Shown here: one piece after another, positions 8,597 through 38,207 of the stretch
Layout of the letters: each line of letters starts with the position of its first letter
How positions within the stretch are numbered: the first letter of the stretch is position 1
NCBI GenBank assembly: GCA_017471825.1
Contig: JAFURQ010000003.1
Span: 1 to 47,183, forward strand
DNA: 47,183 nt
Source of the DNA: Clostridia bacterium
GTDB lineage: Bacteria; Bacillota; Clostridia; Oscillospirales; CAG-272
Direction: 5' to 3'
The notes under the pieces: model-generated
Database searches by the model: none
What the model was told of the DNA's origin: nothing
What the model saw: only the letters and a program-made list of their open reading frames with translations
Program-made: the position numbers and the translations under genes

Positions 8597-8863
8597 TTAC
8601 TTTCTGAGACCGAGTCTCTTGATTACCGAGCGGTATCTTTCGATATCCTTCTTTGCAAGGTAAGCGAGGAGCTGCTTTCTGTGACCAACCATCTTGGAAA
8701 GACCTCTCTGAGAATGGAAGTCCTTGGGGTTCTTCTTCATGTGCTCGGTAAGGCTGTTGATTCTATCGGTAAGGATAGCGATCTGTACCTCGGGCGAGCC
8801 GGTGTCATTCTCGTTGATCTTGTACTCAGCGATGATGGCGGTTTTGGTTTCCTTAGAAATCAT
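8597..8863 (-). CDS. rpsO: 30S ribosomal protein S15
   Basis: The 88-residue protein matches S15 along its whole length: [21 protein letters not shown], the [17 protein letters not shown] block that binds 16S rRNA, and the ending [13 protein letters not shown]15 nucleates assembly of the central 30S domain. It has its own promoter (8993-9021) and a leader of roughly 120 nt, and is followed by pnp. S15 is known to repress its own mRNA in several bacteria through leader RNA structure, and the length of this leader would allow that. Confidence 0.98.
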
Positions 8864-8986
8864 TGTTCTTCACCTTTCTTAATATTATTCTCCTGTACCC
8901 GAGTAAAGCGCGGGTGAAATACGCAAGCCACGCAAGGACTGTGTCCAGACGGAGCAGGGTCATACGCTTAACCAAGGCATAGGCCA
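8864..8986 (-). promoter_or_regulatory. Leader RNA of rpsO, candidate S15 autoregulatory region
   Basis: About 120 nt separate the predicted transcription start from the S15 ATG. On the minus strand it contains an ACCCGCGCTTTACTCGGGT hairpin immediately before the AGGAG-type site, and further G/C-rich segments (CTCCGTCTGGACACAGTCC, TTGCGTGGCTTGCG) able to pair. I cannot match it to a specific known S15 leader class. Confidence 0.45.
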
Positions 8987-8992
8987 AATGGT

Positions 8993-9021
8993 ATTATAGC
9001 ATACTTTTTTCAAAAAGTAAA
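8993..9021 (-). promoter_or_regulatory. Promoter of rpsO-pnp
   Basis: On the minus strand a -35 TTTACT (9016-9021) and a perfect -10 TATAAT (8993-8998) are separated by 17 bases. It lies about 30 bases after the end of the metallophosphoesterase gene; I see no strong terminator between the two. Confidence 0.75.
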
Positions 9022-9050
9022 GTGTTTTTATAAAAATAATTTATATATAA

Positions 9051-10976
9051 TTATATATCAGCTTTTTTCTTCCTAATAACTATTATAATTACTACTGCTA
9101 CCGCCACGGCAACTGCCAAAGCAGCTGACACTGCGATCACGGCGATTGAGCCGCTTTTCATTTCCGCCGAGCATACGTCGCACAGCTTATCTCCGTTTGC
9201 ATCCACGTGCTCACCCGGCTCTCGTGCTTGGCTACAGCCTGCCCTGTTGCACTCGGAATCGCAATCTCCACTGTACTTATGACCGCGAGGCTCGCCGTCG
9301 GTAGCGGAGCAGATCTCACATACTGCGGGCTCGGTGCAGGTGGGGTCGGAATATTCGTGGCCGCCGGCTCTGCCGCGGACATAATCGCATCCCTCTCTCT
9401 TACAGGTCTTGGGCTCGGTGCAGGTTGCGGGAGCGAGATCGTGCCCGAGGGGTGCTGTTACCTGCTCGTAGGGGGCGGTTTCAACCGTGCAGTCAAAATC
9501 GGCGAAGAAAAGATTGCACGACGTGCATTTCCAATACTCCGCATTTCCCCCGTTTATGCACGTAGGCTCGTGCGGCTCAACGCGCTCGAGGGTATGGATA
9601 TGCGCTGTCTTGGACACGGTAAACGTATCAAAAACGCTCATATCGTCAAGAAAATACGACGTCATAGTTATCTCGGTATCGGTCACGCTGAAATGTATGG
9701 CGCTCTTTCTGTGCTCGTCGTTTTTATACGCTATATAATTGGCATCGGTAACGTAGCAGTCGTAAAACTTCGTGCCCGTGGAGGAGCTTGCACAGATATG
9801 CAACGTGCCTATTGGGTCGGAAACAAAGCTACCGACAACCTCGTCGGTGCTGGGAGTAACGCCGTCCATCATTCTGCTACGCACGTAAATGTGATCGTGA
9901 CCGCTGAGAACGACGTCGATTTCAAGCTCTGTGAGAATCGGAGCCAGCGCCGCACGGAAAACGCCTATCTCGGTTTCAAAATGGGCATATTCCTCCCACG
10001 AGTGATAGCCTGCCGAAAACAGCGCGTTGTGGAGGACGACTATCTTCCACGCCGTGCCGGGATTTGCGGCAATTGCCTGCTCCATAAACGCCTTGTGCTC
10101 GTTATTGGTTGCGGCGGCGGTGTCCGCCATATTCAAGTGCATAAACCAAGTGTTATTGTAGGTATACCAATAATTTGCGCCGGAAACGTCAACGCCGTAT
10201 TCAGTGCTGACGTTGGGTAGATTAAAATGCTCGTAAAATGCGACGGACGGGCTATCGTGCGCAGGCCCTATGGTTGGCGCAAACGTAAATCCCGTGAGCT
10301 CATCGAGCAAAAGATAACCGTAATGCTCCTCCGATGCAGGAGTTACTATCTGGTCACCCGCAGAAACGAGCAATGAGGTACCGAGCTCGGATTTTATTGT
10401 GGCGAGCGTATCCGCCCATGCGGCACTTCCCTCCGCGCTATTGAGTTGAGGATCGCCTACGAAGGTGAATTCATAATCGCCTACGGGGTCGGTTGAGAAA
10501 TAGTACAGCTCGGATGAGTTATCACCGACAGACATACAGTAAACGTAGTCGGTATCGGGCTCGAGGTTTGTAAGCGTTGCCTTGTGTGAATAGTAGCCCG
10601 ACTTATTGGTAGCTACAGCGACCTCGGAGGAATGGGCGGTACCGTCAGGAAACTCGCCGTTTGTAACCTCAGCGATAGGGGCACAGTAGATTGTGCTACT
10701 GCTGGCTAACGTGCTGTACCAGGTAATCTGCCTTTGCGTTTCGTCGGAGCCGACGCAGAGAACCACGTCACAAAACGCGTTGTCCTCGGTCATATAAGTG
10801 GCGGTAAGGCTATTGAGGTCCGCGGCAGGATCGGTATTGTTGTCAAGATATTTCCATACGGTGTCGGTGTCAATAAGCGTTTCTTCGGTATCAACGGCGA
10901 GCGTCGAAACCGTGAAGGTGCAAATTATGAGTAAAACCGAACATAGTATAGCAGTTATTTTTATAGCTCTTCTCAT
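9051..10976 (-). CDS. Surface-anchored metallophosphoesterase with N-terminal Ig-like domain and Cys-rich C-terminal repeats
   Basis: The 641-residue protein has a signal peptide (residues 1-27, cleavage near STLA), a purple-acid-phosphatase-like N-terminal beta domain (to about 165), a calcineurin-type phosphoesterase domain (about 165-430) with FVGDPQ, SAGDQI, VVLHNALF and SGHDHIY, then Cys-pair repeats of the TCTEPxxCxxC type each ending GHxY. It ends in a hydrophobic helix (about 608-634) and the positive tail RKKKADI, anchoring it in the membrane facing outward. The usual GNH[DE] metal motif reads GPAHD, without the Asn ligand. It starts eight bases after mnmM, sharing the transcript. 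Its substrate is unknown. Confidence 0.85.
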   Translation of the reverse strand: MRRAIKITAILCSVLLIICTFTVSTLAVDTEETLIDTDTVWKYLDNNTDPAADLNSLTATYMTEDNAFCDVVLCVGSDETQRQITWYSTLASSSTIYCAPIAEVTNGEFPDGTAHSSEVAVATNKSGYYSHKATLTNLEPDTDYVYCMSVGDNSSELYYFSTDPVGDYEFTFVGDPQLNSAEGSAAWADTLATIKSELGTSLLVSAGDQIVTPASEEHYGYLLLDELTGFTFAPTIGPAHDSPSVAFYEHFNLPNVSTEYGVDVSGANYWYTYNNTWFMHLNMADTAAATNNEHKAFMEQAIAANPGTAWKIVVLHNALFSAGYHSWEEYAHFETEIGVFRAALAPILTELEIDVVLSGHDHIYVRSRMMDGVTPSTDEVVGSFVSDPIGTLHICASSSTGTKFYDCYVTDANYIAYKNDEHRKSAIHFSVTDTEITMTSYFLDDMSVFDTFTVSKTAHIHTLERVEPHEPTCINGGNAEYWKCTSCNLFFADFDCTVETAPYEQVTAPLGHDLAPATCTEPKTCKREGCDYVRGRAGGHEYSDPTCTEPAVCEICSATDGEPRGHKYSGDCDSECNRAGCSQAREPGEHVDANGDKLCDVCSAEMKSGSIAVIAVSAALAVAVAVAVVIIIVIRKKKADI

Positions 10977-29795: not shown

Positions 29796-29862
29796 ACCTT
29801 TTGATTTCTGTAACAATTGACAAAAATAGTTATTTTTTTATCATTGAATTATTCCGTAGCTA

Positions 29863-29906
29863 TTGTAAATAAAAAGTTGAAGTGATATAATGGACGTATG
29901 CATACG
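29863..29906 (+). promoter_or_regulatory. Promoter of the hydrogenase operon with a palindrome at the start site
   Basis: TTGTAA (29863-29868) and a perfect TATAAT (29886-29891) with a 17-base spacer. A perfect 12-base palindrome CGTATGCATACG (29895-29906) covers the predicted transcription start and could be an operator. I looked for a Rex-type TTGTTAA-N-TTAACAA site and did not find one. Confidence 0.7.
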
Positions 29907-29931
29907 CATAAATAAAAAGGAGGACAACAAA

Positions 29932-30426
29932 ATGATCAAAAAGCTTTCTACCCTTCCCTTCAAGTCAACGAAGGAACAGGAAGCACAGCTCCAGGCGGTG
30001 ATCGACGGACACAAGCATGACAAAAGTCTTGTCATGGCAGTTATGCAAAAGGCACAGGCAATCTACGGATATCTTCCGATTGAGGTTCAGAATGCCATTG
30101 CAGAGGGAATGAACGTGCCGCTTGAAAAGGTGTACGGAATTGCAACGTTCTACGCACAGTTCTCACTCACCCCCCAAGGAGATCACCACATCTCCGTATG
30201 TCTTGGTACCGCTTGCTACGTAAGAGGCTCCGGTGACATCTACAACAAGCTCCAGGAGGTTCTCGGCATTGGCGGTGACGAATGTACTGCCGACAGAAAA
30301 TTCTCCCTTACCGCTTGCCGTTGTATAGGTGCCTGCGGACTTGCTCCCGTTCTTACTGTAAACGAAGAGGTTTACGGCAGACTTACTGTTGACGACGTAC
30401 CCGGTATAGTTGCGAAGTATTCCTGA
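29932..30426 (+). CDS. hydC: NAD-dependent hydrogenase subunit, NuoE/HydC type
   Basis: The 164-residue protein is a thioredoxin-like [2Fe-2S] subunit. A helical N-terminal part (QKAQAIYGYLPIEVQNAIAEGMNVPLEKVYGIATFY) precedes the cluster ligands in CLGTACYVRG and CRCIGACGLAP. In trimeric NAD-linked [FeFe]-hydrogenases this subunit passes electrons beside HydB. I chose the ATG at 29932 after AAGGAGG; the frame could be extended to 29890 but that lies over the promoter. It is the first gene of the ten-gene operon, separated from hydB and hydA by the seven regulatory-type and accessory genes. Confidence 0.93.
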   Translation: MIKKLSTLPFKSTKEQEAQLQAVIDGHKHDKSLVMAVMQKAQAIYGYLPIEVQNAIAEGMNVPLEKVYGIATFYAQFSLTPQGDHHISVCLGTACYVRGSGDIYNKLQEVLGIGGDECTADRKFSLTACRCIGACGLAPVLTVNEEVYGRLTVDDVPGIVAKYS

Positions 30427-30457
30427 TAATTCCCAAAGGAAGTTCGAGGAAAACACT

Positions 30458-30814
30458 ATGAAAATCAGTACAATGCGAGATCTGCTCGATGCAGAGGTTC
30501 TATGCTGCGAGGAAAAGCTGGGAAGCCACGTTTATTCCGCGTTCGGCTGTGATCTTATGAGCGACGTGCTCGCTTTTGTCGATAATCAGGCGGTGCTGCT
30601 TTCGGGGCTTGTCAACCCGCAGGTAATTCGTACCGCAGTTATGATGGATATGAACTGTATCGTTTTTGTCCGCTCCAAAAAGCCCACCCCCGAAATGCTT
30701 GAGCTTGCCGAGGAAAGCGGCATCGTGGTTCTCTCAACCGACAAAACGATGTATACCTCCTGCGGCATCCTGTACAGCAACGGGCTTACGGGTGAACGCG
30801 AGGGCAAGAAATGA
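30458..30814 (+). CDS. DRTGG-domain protein 1
   Basis: The 118-residue protein resembles the small DRTGG-type domain found near HPr kinase/phosphorylase and in proteins beside clostridial hydrogenases. The sequence has FVDNQAVLLSGLVNPQVIRTA, CIVFVRSKKPTPEMLELAEESGIVVLSTD and a final YTSCGILYSNGL. The literal DRTGG tetrapeptide is absent, so the family name rests on overall pattern and context. It probably binds a ligand or nucleotide as a sensor. I start it at the ATG at 30458 behind GAGGA. It overlaps the next gene by four bases (ATGA), so it pairs with ATPase 1. Confidence 0.75.
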   Translation: MKISTMRDLLDAEVLCCEEKLGSHVYSAFGCDLMSDVLAFVDNQAVLLSGLVNPQVIRTAVMMDMNCIVFVRSKKPTPEMLELAEESGIVVLSTDKTMYTSCGILYSNGLTGEREGKK

Positions 30815-31233
30815 GCGAAGAATTAATCTTTCGTTTCAACGTTGACGGCGAAGATTTCACGTCTGCCGGTCAGGCGTCGGTTCAAATCAAGAAAAATTTA
30901 AGGCAGCTCGGAATCGACTCCGAAACCATTCGGCGCGTTTCGGTTGCTATGTACGAGGGTGAGATCAATATGGTAATACACGCAGGCGGCGGTGTTGCTG
31001 AGGTGCGCGTATGTGAGAGCTATATTGAAATCATACTCGATGACAAGGGACCGGGTATCAAAAATATCGATCAAGCAATGCAGGAGGGCTTTTCCACTGC
31101 GCCCGACACCATCCGCTCTCTCGGATTCGGCGCGGGTATGGGCTTGCCGAATATGAAAAGATACACCGATTCGATGAAGATAGAATCAGAGGTCGGTGTC
31201 GGTACCAGGGTCACGATGAGAGTAAATATCTAA
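30811..31233 (+). CDS. GHKL ATPase 1 (anti-sigma/RsbW-like)
   Basis: A 140-residue stand-alone HATPase_c domain with the N box in YEGEINMVIHAGG, the G1 loop DDKGPGI and the G2 stretch GFGAGMGLPNMKRY. This is the fold of RsbW/SpoIIAB anti-sigma kinases and of histidine-kinase ATP lids. No HisKA or partner domain is attached, so it must act on a separate protein. It overlaps the DRTGG protein gene by four bases and lies 18 bases ahead of the sensory hydrogenase gene. This order suggests these three make one module. Confidence 0.82.
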   Translation: MSEELIFRFNVDGEDFTSAGQASVQIKKNLRQLGIDSETIRRVSVAMYEGEINMVIHAGGGVAEVRVCESYIEIILDDKGPGIKNIDQAMQEGFSTAPDTIRSLGFGAGMGLPNMKRYTDSMKIESEVGVGTRVTMRVNI

Positions 31234-31251
31234 AAATTAGGGAGTGTTTCT

Positions 31252-32517
31252 ATGCACATTTACGAGCATTCCGTCCTTCTGGACGAAAGTAAATGCACCG
31301 GTTGCACCACCTGTCTCAGACACTGTCCCACAGAGGCAATAAGAATTCGTGAGGGTCATGCGGTTATTGATCCGCGCAAGTGTATTGACTGCGGCGAATG
31401 CATCAAGGTCTGTCCGCACAAGGCAAAAAAGGCTGTCTGCGGAAAGCTCTCGGACATTCAGCGCTTCAAATGGAAAATAGCGCTTCCCGCCCCCACACTT
31501 TACGGTCAGTTTGACAATCTTGACAGCGCAGACTACGTATTAAGCGGACTTCTGAAGCTCGGCTTCGATGACGTCTACGAGGTTTCAAAGGCCGCGGAGC
31601 TCGTTTCGGCTTACACCAGAGTGTATCTCAACACAGAGGGTGTTAAGAAGCCTGCGCTAAGCTCTGCCTGTCCGGTAGTGTTAAGGCTTATAAGCTTAAG
31701 ATTTCCATCACTCAGCGAGCACGTAATACATATGCTCCCACCAATGGAGATTGCCGCCAAGGCGGCAAAGGAGCGCGCGATAAAGGCGCACCCCGAATTG
31801 AAGCCCGAGGATATAGGCACGTTCTTTATCTCGCCCTGCGCAGCCAAGGCGAGCTACGTAAAAAACGGCTTCGCCGGCTATAAAAGCGCCGTTGACGGAG
31901 TTATTTCCATCAGCGACATATACTTCTCTCTTATCGGAACGATGCGCAAGGACGAAAGCATTGAGCCTCTTTCCGAATCGGGAAGAATCGGACTCGGCTG
32001 GGCAAGATCGGGCGGCGAGGCAACCGCTATTTTCAACGACGATTATCTCGCGGCTGACGGAATCGAAAACATTATCCACGTTCTCGATCAGGTAGAAACG
32101 GGAAACATCCCACCGCTCGAATTTATAGAGCTCAACGCCTGTACGGGCGGTTGCGTGGGCGGTGTGCTCACGATACAAAATCCCTTCATCGCCAAGGCGC
32201 GTCTTCAGACGCTCAGAAGATACCTTCCGATATCGCAAAATTCCATCTCCAAGGAGGAGTCTGCGTATATTCCCGACTCCTATTTGTTCGAGGATATGCC
32301 GGAGTATCATTCCAACACGAAGCTTGGCGGAAGCATTGCAGAGTCGATGCGAATGATGGCGGATATTCAGAAGCTCAAGGGCGAGCTTCCCGGTATAGAT
32401 TGCGGCTCCTGCGGAGCTCCGAATTGCAGAGCATTTGCGGAGGACGTAATCAACGGGCTTGCTACTGCTGACGGATGTCCCATAAAGGCTTTCAGAAATA
32501 AAACCGGAGAGGATTAA
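31252..32517 (+). CDS. Sensory-type [FeFe]-hydrogenase-like protein
   Basis: A 421-residue protein with two N-terminal [4Fe-4S] motifs (CTGCTTCLRHCP, CIDCGECIKVCP), a hydrogenase-like large domain and a C-terminal Fe-S motif CGSCGAPNCRAFAEDV. The H-cluster binding loops are SSACPVV (about residues 137-143), ISPCAAK and ELNACTGGCVGG. The proton-relay Cys of catalytic enzymes is an alanine (about A139), as described for sensory hydrogenases such as the Thermoanaerobacter HydS; the neighbouring cluster-ligand Cys (C140) is retained. It has no PAS or kinase domain, so any signal output must pass to the co-encoded ATPases, DRTGG or PHP proteins. Confidence 0.88.
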   Translation: MHIYEHSVLLDESKCTGCTTCLRHCPTEAIRIREGHAVIDPRKCIDCGECIKVCPHKAKKAVCGKLSDIQRFKWKIALPAPTLYGQFDNLDSADYVLSGLLKLGFDDVYEVSKAAELVSAYTRVYLNTEGVKKPALSSACPVVLRLISLRFPSLSEHVIHMLPPMEIAAKAAKERAIKAHPELKPEDIGTFFISPCAAKASYVKNGFAGYKSAVDGVISISDIYFSLIGTMRKDESIEPLSESGRIGLGWARSGGEATAIFNDDYLAADGIENIIHVLDQVETGNIPPLEFIELNACTGGCVGGVLTIQNPFIAKARLQTLRRYLPISQNSISKEESAYIPDSYLFEDMPEYHSNTKLGGSIAESMRMMADIQKLKGELPGIDCGSCGAPNCRAFAEDVINGLATADGCPIKAFRNKTGED

Positions 32518-32521
32518 TGCC

Positions 32522-32848
32522 ATGACGGTAAACGAGCTTGCAAAAAATATAAAATGCCGTGCCCTGTCCTTGCCCGACGGTGAGCGCGAGGTTTGCGGTG
32601 TTTATATCGGCGACCTGCTCAGCTGGGTTATGGGACGTGCAAGCGAGGGAGATGCGTGGATAACCATTATGTCTAACATAAACACGGTTGCCGTTGCTAC
32701 CCTTGCGGACGTATCCTGCATAATTTTAGCCGAGGGTGTGAGCCTCGACGACGAGGTTCTTGCCGTTGCAAAGGAAAAGGGCGTTAACGTCCTTACAACC
32801 GAGATGTCGGCGTATAATACCGCAGTTGCATTACACGGTATTATTTAA
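32522..32848 (+). CDS. DRTGG-domain protein 2
   Basis: A 108-residue protein of the same general type as the gene at 30458: VYIGDLLSWVMGRASEGDAWITIMSN, VADVSCIILAEG-like strand pattern and the ending VLTTEMSAYNTAVALHG. The two are distant paralogues by pattern (a strand, a conserved threonine-containing loop and a short C-terminal helix), although I could not align them by computation. It starts four bases after the sensory hydrogenase gene and overlaps the PHP gene by one base, so it pairs with the PHP and second ATPase genes. Confidence 0.75.
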   Translation: MTVNELAKNIKCRALSLPDGEREVCGVYIGDLLSWVMGRASEGDAWITIMSNINTVAVATLADVSCIILAEGVSLDDEVLAVAKEKGVNVLTTEMSAYNTAVALHGII

Positions 32849-33573
32849 TGAAAAGACTTTACTACGATCTACACAATCATTCCTGCCTTTCACCCTGCGC
32901 GGACAATGACAGCACCCCGAACAATATTGCGGGTATGGCATCGCTGTGCGGCATAAACGTTATGGCACTCACCGACCATAACACGTGTAAAAACTGCCCT
33001 GCTTTTTTCGAGGCGGCAGATAGGTACGGAATTATTCCCATTGCGGGAATGGAGCTGACGACGTCGGAGGATATTCACGTAGTTTTTCTCTTTGACGAGC
33101 TTCGGGACGCTATGCGCTTTGACGAGGCTATTTCAAAAAGACGCGTGCTTATCAAAAACCGACCCGATATTTTCGGCGAGCAGCTCATACTCGACGGTGA
33201 GGACAACGTTATCGGCAAGGACGAGCATCTTCTGTCCAACGCGACCACGGTTTCGGTGGAGGAGGTGCAACAGCTTGCGAAGGAATACGGAGCGGTGTGC
33301 TACCCTGCACATGTTGACCGCGAGTCAAACGGCATTATCGCCGTGCTGGGTGTAATTCCCGAGCATCTGAATTTCCGTTGCGTTGAAATTTATAACAAGG
33401 AAAACATTCCTGAATACAGGAAGCGCTATATTCCCGACGGAGTCGTGACAGTTATCGGCTCTGACAGCCACTGTCTTACGGATATGCGCGACGGGGAGAA
33501 CTATTTCGAGCTTGATACCGACACGGACGATATCAGCTCGCTACGAAGGCAGCTTCTCGATTTGTTGAGGTGA
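32848..33573 (+). CDS. PHP-domain phosphoesterase
   Basis: The 241-residue protein has the PHP metal-site motifs in order: DLHNHSCLSPCADN, LTDHNTCKN, GMELTTSED, CYPAHVDRESN and GSDSHC. This is a trinuclear metal site like that of the TrpH/YciV and histidinol-phosphatase families. Its substrate is unknown; a nucleotide or phosphoprotein is possible and would suit an ATPase partner. It overlaps the DRTGG gene upstream by one base and is three bases from ATPase 2, which makes it an integral part of the module rather than a passenger. Confidence 0.88.
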   Translation: MKRLYYDLHNHSCLSPCADNDSTPNNIAGMASLCGINVMALTDHNTCKNCPAFFEAADRYGIIPIAGMELTTSEDIHVVFLFDELRDAMRFDEAISKRRVLIKNRPDIFGEQLILDGEDNVIGKDEHLLSNATTVSVEEVQQLAKEYGAVCYPAHVDRESNGIIAVLGVIPEHLNFRCVEIYNKENIPEYRKRYIPDGVVTVIGSDSHCLTDMRDGENYFELDTDTDDISSLRRQLLDLLR

Positions 33574-33576
33574 AAA

Positions 33577-34125
33577 ATGAAGGAATTATCTCTTAACATA
33601 CTCGATATTGCGGAAAACTCCGCAAAAGCAAATGCCACTTTTATTGAAATCGGGATAACCGAAGCCGAGGATACCCTCGTGCTCACGATAGCCGATGACG
33701 GCTGCGGAATGAGCGCGGAAACGGTTGAGTCGGTCATAAACCCCTTTTTCACTACGAGAACGACACGAAAGGTTGGACTTGGTATCCCGCTTTTGAAGCT
33801 TGCCGCCGAGCAAACCGGAGGCGAACTCGACATAAAATCAAAGATGGCGAGTGACACCGACGCCGAGCACGGCACCGTTGTAAGAGCGCTGTTTTACAAA
33901 AACCACGTTGACTGCACGCCGCTTGGCGACGTTGCACAAACTCTGATAACTCTTATTCAGGGGCACCCCGATATTGACTTCGTTTTTGTTCATAAAAAGG
34001 GGGACAAGTCGGTAGCTCTTGACACGAGGGAGCTGAGGGTGGTTCTGGAGGACGTTCCCCTCCATACTTACGAGGTTATTATGTGGATAAAGGATAACCT
34101 CGAGGAGCAATACCAATCGTTTTGA
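33577..34125 (+). CDS. GHKL ATPase 2
   Basis: A 182-residue HATPase_c protein: N box LDIAENSAKANA, G1 loop ADDGCGM, the FFTTRTTRKVGLGIPLLK stretch with the G2 box, and a C-terminal extension of about 70 residues (LITLIQGHPDIDFVFVHKK onward) with no named domain. Unlike ATPase 1 it has the full F box and longer lid typical of sensor-kinase ATPases, but no HisKA domain. It lies three bases after the PHP gene. The 61 bases to the next gene hold no clear promoter. Confidence 0.82.
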   Translation: MKELSLNILDIAENSAKANATFIEIGITEAEDTLVLTIADDGCGMSAETVESVINPFFTTRTTRKVGLGIPLLKLAAEQTGGELDIKSKMASDTDAEHGTVVRALFYKNHVDCTPLGDVAQTLITLIQGHPDIDFVFVHKKGDKSVALDTRELRVVLEDVPLHTYEVIMWIKDNLEEQYQSF

Positions 34126-34186
34126 AATAATTTTACATACAGCACATTTCAAAAGAATCCAAATGAAATTTCAGAAAGGAATTAAA

Positions 34187-34555
34187 ATGAAATCTTTAGC
34201 TGAATTGCAAGCAATCAAAGACAGAATGAAAAGCAAAGTAGTTCTGCGTGAGGGCTCCGGAGACGTTCGCGTTGTCGTAGGTATGGCTACCTGCGGTATT
34301 GCAGCCGGAGCAAGACCCGTTCTCAATGCCTTCGTTGAGGCTGTGAACGCGGAAAATCTTACCGATAAGGTAACCGTTTCTCAGACCGGTTGCATCGGTA
34401 TCTGCCAGTTTGAGCCCGTTGTTGAGGTTTACGAGGCAGGCAAGGAAAAAACCACTTACGTAAAGATGACCCCCGAGAAGGTTGCGGAGGTTGTTGAAAA
34501 GCATCTTAAAGGCGGCAAGGTTGTTACAGAGTTCACTATTGCCGAAGTTAAATAA
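34187..34555 (+). CDS. [2Fe-2S] thioredoxin-like ferredoxin subunit
   Basis: The 122-residue protein has a thioredoxin-like [2Fe-2S] fold: GMATCGIAAGARP and QTGCIGICQFEPVVEV carry the four expected cysteines, and the ending VAEVVEKHLKGGKVV matches small NuoE-like ferredoxins fused or adjacent to NuoF in hydrogenases. I start it at the ATG at 34187, with AGAAAGGA six bases away; the frame extends upstream to 34163 but without a better site. It is 14 bases from hydB. The HydB N-terminus has a similar domain, so two of these electron-entry domains act in series. Confidence 0.9.
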   Translation: MKSLAELQAIKDRMKSKVVLREGSGDVRVVVGMATCGIAAGARPVLNAFVEAVNAENLTDKVTVSQTGCIGICQFEPVVEVYEAGKEKTTYVKMTPEKVAEVVEKHLKGGKVVTEFTIAEVK

Positions 34556-34569
34556 TTGGAGGTAAAGTT

Positions 34570-36396
34570 ATGATTCGTGCACATGTGCTTGTCTGCGGCG
34601 GTACAGGCTGTACCTCTTCCGGAAGTAAGGCGGTTCAGGAGGCTTTTACAAAGCATATCGCTGAATACGGTCTTGCCGAGGAGGTAAAACTCGTTCAGAC
34701 AGGTTGTTTCGGCCTTTGCGCCCTCGGTCCCGTTGTTATTGTTTATCCCGACGGAACCTTCTACAGCCGCGTTACTGCTGACGACGTAAAGGAAATCGTT
34801 GAGGAGCATCTTCTCAAGGGTAGAGTCGTTGAGCGTCTTGTTTACGCCGATACCGGTGAAGATGCAGAGGCTATCAAGGAAAAGGTTAACGTATCCCTTA
34901 ACGATACGGCATTCTACAAGTCCCAGAGAAGAATAGTTCTTCGTAACTGCGGTGTTATCGACCCTGACAACATCGATGAGTATATCGCTATGGACGGTTA
35001 TCAGGCACTTGCAAAGGTGCTTACCGAGATGACTCCCGAGGAGGTTATCAAGAAGGTTTCCGATTCCGGTCTTCGCGGAAGAGGAGGCGGAGGCTTCCCC
35101 ACCGGTCGCAAGTGGGCTCTTTGCGCTCCCAACAAGGCTCCCCAGAAGTACGTTGTTTGTAACGCAGACGAGGGCGACCCCGGAGCGTTCATGGACCGTT
35201 CCATTCTTGAGGGTGACCCCCACTGCCTTATCGAGGCAATGGCTATCTGCGGCTATGCAGTAGGCGCTACCAAGGGTTACGTATACGTTCGTGCAGAGTA
35301 TCCTATCGCAGTTGACAGACTTCAGAAGGCTATTGATGCGGCTAACGAGTACGGACTTCTCGGCAAGGATATCTTCGGCTCCGGCTTTGATTTTGATCTT
35401 CAGATCAGACTTGGTGCGGGCGCGTTCGTTTGCGGCGAGGAAACCGCTCTTATGACCTCGATTGAGGGTAACAGAGGTGAGCCCCGTCCCCGTCCTCCGT
35501 ATCCTGCTGTTAAGGGTCTTTTTGAATCTTCCACAGTTGAGAACAACGTTGAGACCTTTGCAAACATTCCTCAGATAATTCTTCACGATACCGAGTGGTT
35601 CACCTCTATGGGTACCGAAAAGTCCAAGGGAACCAAGGTATTTGCACTTGGCGGAAATATCGAGCACACCGGTCTTGTTGAGATCCCTATGGGTACTACC
35701 CTTCGCGAGATCATTTACGACATCGGCGGCGGTATTCCCAACGGCAAGCAGTTCAAGGCAGCGCAGACCGGCGGTCCCTCCGGCGGTTGTATCCCCGCAA
35801 GCCTTATTGACACCGAGGTTGACTACGATAACCTTGTATCTCTCGGCTGTATGATGGGCTCCGGCGGTCTTATCGTTATGGACGAGGATACCTGTATGGT
35901 TGACATGGCTAAGTTCTTCCTTGAGTTTACCGTTGACGAGTCCTGCGGTAAGTGTACCCCCTGCCGTGTAGGTACCAGACGTCTTCTTGAGCTCCTTGAG
36001 AAGATTACCGACGGTAAGGGCACGCTTGAGGACCTTGACAGACTTGAAGAGCTTTGCAACTACATAAAGCAGAACTCCCTTTGCGGTCTTGGACAAACTG
36101 CACCCAACCCCGTTCTCGCTACACTCAAATTCTTCAGAGAAGAATATATCGCTCACGTTGTTGACAAGAAGTGTCCTGCAGGCGTTTGTAAGTCACTCCT
36201 TTCCTTCAACATTGACAAGGATAAGTGTATCGGCTGCGGCAAGTGTGCAAAGAACTGCCCTGTTGATGCTATTACAAAGACAGATTATGTAGCTCCCGGA
36301 CATAAGCTTCCCTCCTACGTTATCGATACCGCAAAGTGTATCAAATGTAGTGCTTGTATGGCAGGCTGTAAGTTCGGCGCTATATCCAAGATATAA
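34570..36396 (+). CDS. hydB: NAD-linked hydrogenase subunit, NuoF/HydB type
   Basis: The 608-residue protein has a thioredoxin-like [2Fe-2S] domain (1-90; CGGTGC and QTGCFGLC), the FMN and NADH-binding NuoF core (LRGRGGGGFPTGRKW near 168-182; NADEGDPGAFMDR; GAGAFVCGEETAL), an SLBB-type region, the [4Fe-4S] motif ESCGKCTPCRVG near 457-468 with a fourth Cys in NSLCGLGQ, and a C-terminal 2x[4Fe-4S] ferredoxin (CIGCGKCAKNC from 553, CIKCSACMAGC from 590). It oxidises or reduces NAD(P)H for the hydrogenase. Codon use in hydB is strongly biased, as in abundant proteins. Confidence 0.97.
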   Translation: MIRAHVLVCGGTGCTSSGSKAVQEAFTKHIAEYGLAEEVKLVQTGCFGLCALGPVVIVYPDGTFYSRVTADDVKEIVEEHLLKGRVVERLVYADTGEDAEAIKEKVNVSLNDTAFYKSQRRIVLRNCGVIDPDNIDEYIAMDGYQALAKVLTEMTPEEVIKKVSDSGLRGRGGGGFPTGRKWALCAPNKAPQKYVVCNADEGDPGAFMDRSILEGDPHCLIEAMAICGYAVGATKGYVYVRAEYPIAVDRLQKAIDAANEYGLLGKDIFGSGFDFDLQIRLGAGAFVCGEETALMTSIEGNRGEPRPRPPYPAVKGLFESSTVENNVETFANIPQIILHDTEWFTSMGTEKSKGTKVFALGGNIEHTGLVEIPMGTTLREIIYDIGGGIPNGKQFKAAQTGGPSGGCIPASLIDTEVDYDNLVSLGCMMGSGGLIVMDEDTCMVDMAKFFLEFTVDESCGKCTPCRVGTRRLLELLEKITDGKGTLEDLDRLEELCNYIKQNSLCGLGQTAPNPVLATLKFFREEYIAHVVDKKCPAGVCKSLLSFNIDKDKCIGCGKCAKNCPVDAITKTDYVAPGHKLPSYVIDTAKCIKCSACMAGCKFGAISKI

Positions 36397-36414
36397 TGAA
36401 AGGAGTACGCTGTA

Positions 36415-38169
36415 ATGGAAATGCTTAATGTAAAAGTTAACGGTATCGCTGTAAGCGTACCCAAGGGCGCCACTATTCTCGAGGCTGCCCGTGCAGCAGG
36501 CGTGGAAGTCCCCACCCTCTGCTATATGAAGGAGAAAAATGAAATCGGTGCCTGCCGTATCTGCGTTGTTGAAGCAACCGGCGCGCGCGGACTTGTTACC
36601 GCCTGCGTATATCCCGTTACCGAGGGTATGGAGATTCAGACCAACTCACCCAAGGTAAGAGCGGCACGCAAAACCACCCTTGAGCTTATTCTCTCCACTC
36701 ACGATATGAGCTGTCTTTCCTGCTCGCGTTCCACCAACTGCGAGCTTCAGAAGCTTTGTCTTGAATACGGTGTAAACTCGAAGGAGTTTGAAGGCTTCAA
36801 GCCCACCTATGAGCTTGACTACTCTACCCCCCACCTCGTAAGAGATAACAACAAGTGTATCCTTTGCCGCAGATGCGTTGCGGTATGTGAGGAGCAGCAC
36901 GTTGCAGTTATCGGCGCAAACAACCGCGGTATCGATACCTGCATCGGTCAGCCCTTCAATATGGACCTTGGCGATACTCCCTGTATCTCCTGCGGTCAGT
37001 GTACTGCAGTTTGCCCCACCGGCGCACTCGTTGAGCGCGACGATACCGACAAGGTATGGGCGGCTCTCGCTGATTCCTCCAAGCACGTTGTTGTTCAGAC
37101 CGCTCCCTCCATCAGAGCAACTCTCGGCGAGTGCTTCGGTATGCCTATCGGAACCAACGTTGAGGGCAAGATGGTTGCGGCTCTGCGCCGTCTTGGCTTT
37201 GAAAAGGTATTTGACACCAACACCGCTGCTGACTTTACCATCGTTGAAGAGGCTACCGAGCTTCTTGAGCGCGTAAAGAACGGCGGAACCCTTCCCATGA
37301 TCACCTCCTGCTCTCCCGGATGGGTTAAGTTCTGCGAGTACTACTATCCCGAGTATATCGGACACCTCTCCTCCTGCAAGTCTCCTCAGCAGATGGGCGG
37401 CGCGCTCATAAAGACCTACTGGGCTGAAAAGATGGGCTACGATCCTAAGGATATCTTCGTCGTTTCCATCATGCCCTGTACCGCGAAGAAGTTCGAGGTT
37501 CAGAGAGACGATATGTGTGCGGCAGGCGAAGGAATCGTTGACGTTGACGTTGCTCTCACGACCCGTGAGCTTGCAAAGATGATTGGCAGAGCAGGTATCA
37601 AGTTCACCGCTCTTCCTGACGAAGAATTTGACACGGCTCTAGGTGTTGACACCGGTGCGGCTGTTATCTTCGGTGCAACCGGCGGCGTTATGGAGGCTGC
37701 ACTTCGTACCGCTAACGACGTTCTTACCGGTAAGGACAACAAGGAGATAGAGTTTACCGAGGTTCGCGGAACCGAGGGTCTCAAGGAAGCTACCTACAAT
37801 ATCGCAGGTATGGATATCAAGGTTTGCGTTGCTTCCGGCGCGGCTAATGCGAAGCTTGTTATGGACAAGATTGCAAGCGGTGAGGCAGATTGGACGTTCG
37901 TTGAGATTATGGGATGCCCCGGCGGCTGTGTAAACGGCGGCGGTCAGCCCATTCAGCCTCAGTACGTACGCGACACCGTTGATCTCAAGGCTGTAAGAGC
38001 TAAGGCTCTTTACGATCAGGATGCGGCAATGGAGATGAGAAAGTCGCACAACAACCCCATCATTAAGGAAGTTTACGACAACTACTTTAAGGGTGGATAC
38101 GGTTGTCACAAGGCGCACCACATTCTTCACACCTCCTACGTTGCTCGTAAGAGATTCGACAAGGTTTAA
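36415..38169 (+). CDS. hydA: [FeFe]-hydrogenase catalytic subunit
   Basis: The 584-residue enzyme has a plant-type [2Fe-2S] domain (GACRICVVE), a His-ligated [4Fe-4S] site (H96 in STHDMSCLSCSRSTNC), two [4Fe-4S] motifs (CILCRRCVAVC, CISCGQCTAVC) and the H-cluster domain. Its loops are TSCSPGW (297-303), IMPCTAKKF and EIMGCPGGCVNGGGQP, which place it with NAD-linked trimeric enzymes. Position 300 is Ser where CpI-type enzymes have Cys, and a Cys occurs in SSCKSPQQM (about 321). I recall both from trimeric enzymes but cannot check here. It catalyses reversible H2 formation with electrons from HydB and ferredoxin. A short Cys-free tail follows. Confidence 0.97.
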   Translation: MEMLNVKVNGIAVSVPKGATILEAARAAGVEVPTLCYMKEKNEIGACRICVVEATGARGLVTACVYPVTEGMEIQTNSPKVRAARKTTLELILSTHDMSCLSCSRSTNCELQKLCLEYGVNSKEFEGFKPTYELDYSTPHLVRDNNKCILCRRCVAVCEEQHVAVIGANNRGIDTCIGQPFNMDLGDTPCISCGQCTAVCPTGALVERDDTDKVWAALADSSKHVVVQTAPSIRATLGECFGMPIGTNVEGKMVAALRRLGFEKVFDTNTAADFTIVEEATELLERVKNGGTLPMITSCSPGWVKFCEYYYPEYIGHLSSCKSPQQMGGALIKTYWAEKMGYDPKDIFVVSIMPCTAKKFEVQRDDMCAAGEGIVDVDVALTTRELAKMIGRAGIKFTALPDEEFDTALGVDTGAAVIFGATGGVMEAALRTANDVLTGKDNKEIEFTEVRGTEGLKEATYNIAGMDIKVCVASGAANAKLVMDKIASGEADWTFVEIMGCPGGCVNGGGQPIQPQYVRDTVDLKAVRAKALYDQDAAMEMRKSHNNPIIKEVYDNYFKGGYGCHKAHHILHTSYVARKRFDKV

Positions 38170-38179
38170 TAACTGACTA

Positions 38180-38207
38180 AAAGCAGGGCTTCGGCCCTGC
38201 TTTTTTT
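38180..38207 (+). terminator. Terminator of the hydrogenase operon
   Basis: AAAGCAGGGC pairs with GCCCTGCTTT around a TTCG tetraloop, followed by a T-run. A textbook intrinsic terminator. Confidence 0.96.

Follow-up and report, generated by a model that had tools for sequence, protein, structure and literature searches.

A 47,183-nucleotide stretch of a Clostridia bacterium genome (assembly GCA_017471825.1, contig JAFURQ010000003.1; hereafter the window) carries ten genes, all on the + strand, from 29932 to 38169: hydC, DRTGG1 (D1), ATP1, HydS, DRTGG2 (D2), PHP, ATP2, a 2Fe-2S ferredoxin gene (F), hydB, and hydA (Table 1). The six genes from D1 to ATP2, which encode a putative sensory [FeFe]-hydrogenase (HydS) together with two DRTGG proteins, two GHKL ATPases, and a PHP-family protein, form one linkage group across genomes, usually close to the genes of a trimeric hydrogenase, HydABC. 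The order of the ten genes had been proposed in a first-pass annotation made from the sequence alone, and our domain calls from Pfam and NCBIfam agree with all of its gene names. HydABC is predicted to be an electron-bifurcating hydrogenase of group A6, as HydA scores above the NCBIfam A6 cut-off and is accompanied by NuoE-like and NuoF-like subunits. We had considered that HydA might lack a cluster ligand, since it reads TSCSP, and dropped this idea because HydA1 of the solved entry 7q4v has the identical TSCSP. The source genome (89.8% complete) encodes two Fe_hyd_lg_C proteins, and both are in this operon.

Table 1. Coordinates of the hydrogenase operon and its expression signals in the window
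Feature	Position	Strand	Remarks
Two promoter-like sites	29817..29891	+	upstream of hydC
hydC, NuoE-like subunit of HydABC	29932..30426	+	PF01257 164.8 bits; ATG 29932 after GGAGG
DRTGG1 (D1), 118 aa	30458..30814	+	Pfam DRTGG; Ser35 conserved
ATP1, SpoIIAB-like GHKL ATPase, 140 aa	30811..31233	+	HATPase; Glu49 and Asn53 conserved
HydS, group D (M2e) [FeFe]-hydrogenase (assigned by features)	31252..32517	+	Fe_hyd_lg_C; Ala139 at proton-relay position
HydS C-terminal Cx2Cx4Cx16C iron-sulphur motif	32401..32481	+	Cys384, 387, 392, 409; PF04060 48.0 bits
DRTGG2 (D2), 108 aa	32522..32848	+	Pfam DRTGG; Ser34
PHP-family metal phosphoesterase (predicted), 241 aa	32848..33573	+	Pfam PHP; metal ligands conserved
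ATP2, GHKL ATPase, 182 aa	33577..34125	+	HATPase; conserved extra C-terminal region
2Fe-2S thioredoxin-like ferredoxin (F)	34187..34555	+	start by ribosome site; 34163 alternative start
hydB, NuoF-like flavoprotein subunit	34570..36396	+	PF01512
hydA, group A6 catalytic [FeFe]-hydrogenase (predicted)	36415..38169	+	NCBIfam NF040763 864.5 bits, cut-off 765
Intrinsic terminator	38179..38204	+	11-pair stem, T tail

The regulatory genes are tightly packed. As had been noticed for most of them, they overlap or lie less than 20 bases apart, the D1-to-ATP2 block ranging from a 4-base overlap (D1/ATP1) to an 18-base gap (ATP1-HydS), with a 1-base overlap between D2 and PHP and gaps of 4 bases (HydS-D2) and 3 bases (PHP-ATP2). 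PHP and ATP2 share one reading frame, separated by one TGA and one codon, which is relevant because the two are fused in another family. The operon had been described as bracketed by one promoter and one terminator. The terminator holds up well, its stem being the longest among the 12 terminators listed, but a promoter upstream of hydC is only plausible: the two candidate sites score 11/12 (29817-29844) and 10/12 with TG (29863-29891), and the 8 promoter-like sites in the whole region compare with 10.6 ± 2.8 in shuffles. We infer a single transcript over all ten genes. D1 and D2 score 29.8 and 34.5 bits against the Pfam DRTGG cut-off of 25.2, and PHP scores 42.2 bits against 26.4. The DRTGG and ATPase types do occur twice as far as domains are concerned, but D1 and D2, and likewise ATP1 and ATP2, are distinct families with different neighbours.

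HydS has the features of a group D (M2e) hydrogenase, to which we assign it on this basis. It reads SSACP, with Ala139 at the place of the relay cysteine and Cys140 at that of a cluster ligand, and in PDB alignments this motif lies opposite TSCCP in 1hfe and TSACP in 8rxj, the latter being, judged from these two rows, a relay-Cys-to-Ala variant. In 114 aligned HydS rows, the window included, the H-cluster ligands L1, L2, and both Cys of L3 are kept throughout, and the proton-relay (C299) position is occupied by Ala in 98, by Ser in 13, and by Phe, Thr, and His in one each, and never by Cys. Of the C-terminal motif, Cys384, Cys387, and Cys392 are present in all 114 rows and Cys409 in 113, the remaining row having a gap. 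No PAS domain was matched by Pfam in HydS, and HydS is encoded beside genes for a trimeric HydABC-type hydrogenase. The earlier recognition of an Ala at the proton-relay position of a sensor-type hydrogenase is thereby borne out. These features, namely the relay Cys position, the C-terminal motif, and the lack of PAS, are those given for group D by Land 2020 (PMC8163306), where an HK-like ATPase beside TamHydS is noted and the signalling route of group D sensors is posed as an open question. According to Schumann 2026 (PMC13104023), where that route is likewise given as unknown, the oxidation state of the C-terminal cluster does not respond to H2, which argues against a redox relay role for it.

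To see how far the set extends beyond the window, we searched a phylum sample of 259 genomes, source genome included. For group D HydS a match of >=240 bits was required, fragments being admitted (the next matches score 202 bits, from another fragment of a G040 gene already counted, and 181 bits). HydS is carried by 107 genomes (113 places), PHP by 105 (106), ATP1 by 113 (114), ATP2 by 113 (113), and D2, among the matches listed, by 114 (120). The score distributions are clearly bimodal for HydS, PHP, ATP1, and ATP2 and not quite so for D2, whose search also recovers D1 as second matches with lower scores (<=61.5 bits versus 64.2 for the weakest D2). ATP1 lies within 8 kb of a group D HydS in 105 of its 113 genomes (on another contig in 1, no HydS in 7) and PHP in 95 of 105 (another contig 6, no HydS 4); the figures for D2, among the matches listed, are 100 of 114 (another contig 5, no HydS 9) and for ATP2 94 of 113 (another contig 7, no HydS 10, farther away on the same contig 2). 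Conversely, among the 107 genomes with HydS, a match is missing for PHP in 6, for ATP2 in 4, for D2 in 2, and for ATP1 in 1, some of these at contig ends. The Fisher values for this co-occurrence do not take phylogeny into account. Thus the regulatory genes belong together and with the hydrogenase, as had been suggested; in these 259 genomes they are not mostly found apart from it.

Among close relatives (the best 80 of a longer match list, 56-79% identity), D1-ATP1-HydS-D2-PHP is unbroken in 75, contig ends explaining at least some of the rest, and hydC stands directly before D1, as in the window, in 74. We also inspected 51 diverse stretches (L145-L195), which were chosen partly as unusual, so that their tallies are not frequencies. 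The commonest order in these distant loci is D1-ATP1-HydS-D2-PHP followed by hydC-ATP2-F-hydB-hydA (complete in 11 of 51), so that the hydC-first order is a trait of the window lineage. The set is divergent from hydABC in L148-L150, L180, and Subdoligranulum L034, and about 5 kb from the hydABC genes in L174. In genome G205, hydC-ATP2-F-B-A lies 270 kb from the signalling set, and in Parabacteroides distasonis D1-ATP1-HydS-D2-PHP-ATP2 lie together about 58 kb from an F-B-A-C operon in the same record (D1 there is below the Pfam cut-off, 23.6 versus 25.2 bits). The cassette had been taken as embedded in one ten-gene operon; this turned out to be a feature of the lineage, the set elsewhere being divergent, kilobases away, or unlinked.

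Several further copies differ in content or host. Second copies in G244 and G056 (L177 and L178) have HydS-D2 before an F-C-B-A hydrogenase cluster, a reduced cassette in whose stretches D1, ATP1, and PHP were not found. L186 (G074) has full-length matches to D1, D2, ATP2, and hydCFBA and only short pieces of HydS and PHP, and ATP1 was not found there. Metagenome-assembled genomes under the names Coriobacteriales, Atopobiaceae, or actinobacterium hold close copies of the cassette (L050-L053, L060, L063; HydS 67-69% identity), which suggests either that it has moved between phyla or that these sequences were wrongly binned.

In three genomes that lack group D HydS (G125, G150, and G179), there is a D1-ATP1-D2-PHP-ATP2 set whose ATP1 bears two N-terminal CBS domains, and G150 has a second CBS-ATP1 adjoining D1 and F (L152). 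Because CBS-ATP1 occurs in HydS-less sets, it seems that ATP1 can take its input from either HydS or the CBS pair, and the sensor, as judged from these gene arrangements, looks exchangeable. The set can also be smaller: one family keeps just D1-ATP1 (L156, beside RseC and Rex genes, and L158, beside rex), and another keeps D1-ATP1-D2-ATP2 (L155, L157).

Gene fusions point to which products touch. Single open frames were found for D1+ATP1 (L159, L160, with open-frame lengths hinting at more in their families), ATP1+HydS (L145, one genome), HydS+D2 (L146, L147, one family), PHP+ATP2 (L148-L150, one family), and ATP2+F (L175, one genome, where Pfam detects only the ATPase part); both partners are detected by Pfam in L145, L147, L148, L149, L159, and L160. 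By the usual fusion logic, these suggest a contact chain D1-ATP1-HydS-D2 and a pair PHP-ATP2. Chance arrangement is rejected by the co-occurrence and the fusions. A related idea, that these are unrelated housekeeping regulators which merely hitch-hike in the operon, draws on the fact that operons do collect loosely related genes, but nearly all-or-none co-occurrence in about 100 genomes and recurrent fusions make it very improbable. At 62 loci with all nine proteins above thresholds, the distances between proteins correlate best for HydS-ATP1 (0.94), and D1-ATP1 gives 0.90. ATP2 distances correlate at 0.84-0.90 with those of D1, ATP1, HydS, D2, and PHP, and at 0.81 with HydB, 0.78 with HydC, and 0.68 with HydA, so that they lean towards the signalling side, albeit as a relative ranking only, shared ancestry raising all correlations.

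The place of ATP2 bears on another explanation, namely that the GHKL ATPases, DRTGG proteins, and PHP build or protect HydABC and HydS instead of signalling. ATP2 is often among the hydC-F-B-A genes, is fused to F in one case, and has an N-box resembling that of MutL, all of which would suit assembly or repair. However, ATP2 distances agree somewhat better with those of the signalling genes than with those of HydABC, sensing is the role to which the CBS swap points, and a Peptoclostridium acidaminophilum plasmid has hydA-hydC-hydB without the set in the stretch shown, with no PHP found on the plasmid record (the search covered the plasmid and not the chromosome). We regard an assembly or repair role as quite improbable. 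Moreover, Parabacteroides and the loci with a PHP+ATP2 fusion keep ATP2 on the signalling side.

The residues conserved in the set were counted in rows above cut-offs of 350 (HydS), 130 (ATP1), 105 (ATP2), 170 (PHP), 90 (D1), and 60 bits (D2), the window included once in every count. HydS rows of L183 (split frame), L186 (pieces), and the distant hydrogenase frames of L146, L147, L187, and L195 were dropped, as were PHP pieces of L096 and L186. The best PDB match of ATP1 is the anti-sigma F factor SpoIIAB, and Glu49 and Asn53, each present in 120 of 120 rows, fall on its Glu/Asn box; ATP1 thus has the Glu-x3-Asn N-box along with G1 and G2 boxes. In ATP2, Asp10 is kept in 116 of 117 rows and Asn14 in all 117. 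The serine of a D-x-x-S motif is found in 117 of 117 aligned rows of D1 (Ser35) and in 121 of 123 DRTGG2-like rows (Ser34), and the two exceptions, which carry His, are lone copies distant from any cassette gene (L190 around 8748-9086 and L191 around 9084-9425). PHP residues H9, H11, D43, H44, E69, H77, H155, D206, and H208, which, judged by the family, are the metal ligands, are kept in every gapless row (108-110 of 110), consistent with the earlier naming of PHP as a phosphoesterase-family protein. This conservation is what would be expected if ATP1 were an active kinase and the DRTGG serine important, and proves neither.

HATPase domains are present in ATP1 and ATP2, and no HisKA/DHp or response-regulator domain was matched in any of the ten operon proteins, as had been supposed for HisKA. 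A classic two-component system is rejected on these grounds. No DNA-binding domain was found in the ten proteins either. This, together with expression data from Clostridium thermocellum, mildly favours an output at the protein level. In that organism hydABC, with the same arrangement, was unchanged on poplar (PMC3990059), and hydABC was an exception to up-regulation by ethanol (PMC3478167), H2 not being the variable in either case.

These observations have to be set against a transcriptional partner switch, in which ATP1 would act as an anti-sigma-like kinase and the set would free a sigma or transcription factor, e.g. the NADH/NAD+ repressor Rex, that controls hydABC and redox genes. That SpoIIAB is the closest relative of ATP1 speaks for such a switch, and so does the location of rex, which lies within 715 bases of set genes or has an open frame overlapping them in seven loci from five families (L154, L156, L158, L159, L160, L186, and L188); in two of these the set consists of D1-ATP1 alone, and the stretch holds no hydrogenase subunit above thresholds. 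On the other hand, rex was detected in just 12 of 134 stretches (the window plus 133 loci, many stretches being short), the window and the 80 close relatives gave none, and a search of the window with the consensus of the Rex operator gave nothing above chance. The unchanged C. thermocellum hydABC on poplar and its exemption from ethanol induction speak against transcriptional control as well. We consider a transcriptional switch possible, albeit doubtful.

A second alternative is an adenylate or other small-molecule messenger: DRTGG and the CBS variant would bind AMP, ATP, or ApnA, PHP would make or remove a nucleotide signal, and energy charge and H2 would be merged. CBS and DRTGG domains occur together in CBS-DRTGG inorganic pyrophosphatases, and D1 and D2 show weak matches to manganese-dependent inorganic pyrophosphatases. 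CBS pyrophosphatases are described as regulated by AMP, ADP, ATP, and diadenosine polyphosphates (PMC11172384), a CBS pair substitutes for HydS in our set, and in NCBIfam PHP weakly resembles 3',5'-nucleoside bisphosphate phosphatase (33 bits versus a cut-off of 400). However, among solved pyrophosphatases the DRTGG proteins find only marginal matches (E 0.027-0.054), the top PDB row of D1 is an unrelated repeat protein (E 0.011), and the set contains no nucleotide synthase. Unlike CBS-DRTGG pyrophosphatases, the cassette has no pyrophosphatase domain, and CBS is fused to the ATPase in the HydS-less variant. A nucleotide messenger is unlikely in our estimate.

We favour, at about even odds of being right, a reading in which D1-ATP1-HydS-D2-PHP-ATP2 is one set that reads the H2 or redox state and adjusts HydABC. 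The compared sequences show directly that the genes are linked and in part fused, that the catalytic residues are conserved, and that CBS on ATP1 takes the place of HydS; the steps that follow are our interpretation. HydS, a relay-less hydrogenase, would serve as the input and report H2 or redox through its state or shape. It would dock on ATP1, an ATPase of SpoIIAB/RsbW type, and probably gates it. ATP1 and D1, as direct partners, would form the switch. SpoIIAB phosphorylates a serine of SpoIIAA, and this is our model for the ATP1 step: ATP1 as a protein kinase, for which the case is evenly balanced, would phosphorylate the invariant serine of D1 and perhaps that of D2, which would bind HydS. 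PHP, working with ATP2, would take off the phosphate and reset the system; a phosphate signal of this sort, either diffusible or bound to a protein, had been put forward as a possibility in the first-pass annotation. That the DRTGG serine is the target of ATP1 and PHP the phosphatase is a plausible but tentative proposal, more likely wrong than right. ATP2, which is often inside a hydC-ATP2-F-hydB-hydA core, would pass the state on to HydABC at the protein level, and where rex adjoins the set a second output through Rex may exist; whether the output is post-translational rather than transcriptional could go either way.

Several observations weigh against this reading. Of the six HydS genomes with no match to PHP, G206 and G278 have an unbroken D1-ATP1-HydS-D2-C-ATP2-F-B-A locus, and the stretch of G260 lacks D1 as well. 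With the spIIAB equivalog ATP1 reaches only 64 bits, the cut-off being 135, and no gene for a STAS partner or a sigma factor is among the ten genes of the operon, to which that search was confined. The invariance of the DRTGG serine can stem from structure alone, and close relatives make up about two thirds of the rows in which residues were counted (82 of 113 for HydS). Nucleotides or nucleic acids are common substrates of PHP-family enzymes, and the weak PDB matches of PHP include endonuclease Q and an exoribonuclease. ATP2 stands beside hydC, apart from the other signalling genes, in G205, L174, L180, and Subdoligranulum L034. Finally, HydA distances correlate poorly with everything, and common descent inflates each of the distance correlations.

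Part of this picture is already known, namely a sensory hydrogenase with a neighbouring 'histidine/serine kinase'. According to Carere 2012 (PMC3561251), the usual place of a sensory hydrogenase is upstream of a bifurcating one, the two being 'often separated by a histidine/serine kinase', and each of the six M2e entries in Table 6 of that paper has its nearest listed bifurcating gene exactly five locus tags away. For C. thermocellum the paper names Cthe_0335 as the M2e gene and Cthe_0340-0342 as bifurcating genes. The five-tag spacing equals the distance in the commonest distant order, HydS-D2-PHP-hydC-ATP2-F, and we infer that the intervening tags are D2, PHP, hydC, and ATP2. The TamHydS operon of group D (PMC8163306, PMC13104023) shares with ours the domain layout of HydS, a C299 that is not kept, the C-terminal Cx2Cx4Cx16C, the lack of PAS, the position upstream of a bifurcating HydABC, and an HK-like ATPase alongside; the available TamHydS literature, however, names an ATPase/kinase and an AraC regulator and not D1, D2, PHP, and a second ATPase as a set. 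Group C hydrogenases (M2f; C1, C2, C3) are likewise putative sensors, linked to a kinase, chemotaxis protein, or phosphatase (PMC5037454), but they have a fused PAS (PMC8163306) and kinase or phosphatase partners, whereas the window operon gave no match to PAS, HisKA, or SpoIIE. With SpoIIAB/SpoIIAA and RsbW/RsbV the set has in common the fold family of ATP1, the Glu/Asn N-box, and a small partner encoded next door; it differs in that the partner is DRTGG instead of STAS, the operon lacks a gene for a sigma factor, and the presumed phosphatase is PHP instead of PP2C.

In the literature searched, which did not cover Calusinska 2010, the source that the papers on group D give for the gene clusters, we found no paper that connects a sensory hydrogenase with genes of the DRTGG or PHP type, and the full set, the fusions, and the sensor swap were not found there. 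Group D membership, the fusions, the CBS swap, and the link to Rex were also not part of the first-pass annotation. The one paper with both DRTGG and hydrogenase deals with a gene for growth on lactate whose product has AAA and DRTGG domains. A gene for an ATP-binding protein flanks the rnf operon of C. aceticum (figure legend in PMC7911925).

It is also worth mentioning the maturases of [FeFe]-hydrogenases. The H-cluster ligands are intact in the window, and in the source genome HydG was not found and HydF gave nothing above the cut-off, in a search that covered HydF and HydG and not HydE. In a family sample of 40 genomes, 16 have group D HydS, of which 7 have HydF and 6 have HydG; neither was found in 9 of the 16, including four that are 96-98% complete (10 to 150 contigs). 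Draft gaps explain part of the missing maturases, hardly all. In the phylum sample a HydF match is absent in 34 of the 107 HydS genomes, a soft figure as six candidates were scored per genome. Elsewhere in the window, RNase P RNA (class A, 584-956) was the one match of an Rfam scan at gathering scores.

In summary, the cassette may represent a new signalling class, a suggestion that we consider rather unlikely and advance with corresponding caution: ATP1 and DRTGG with an exchangeable HydS or CBS input, and phosphorylation of a DRTGG serine, reversed by PHP, that would tune HydABC and, in some lineages, Rex. Such a class, with the same caution, would need no HisKA, response regulator, or sigma factor, and its CBS input would read adenylates; the CBS swap suggests that the device senses energy charge in other lineages. 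The cassette names the partners of group D HydS and their likely order of contact (DRTGG1-ATP1-HydS-DRTGG2; PHP-ATP2), and with the partners named a small number of purified proteins or deletions would allow the question of group D signalling to be tested. Control of HydABC by H2 is relevant to fermentation in the gut and rumen and to strains for bio-hydrogen.

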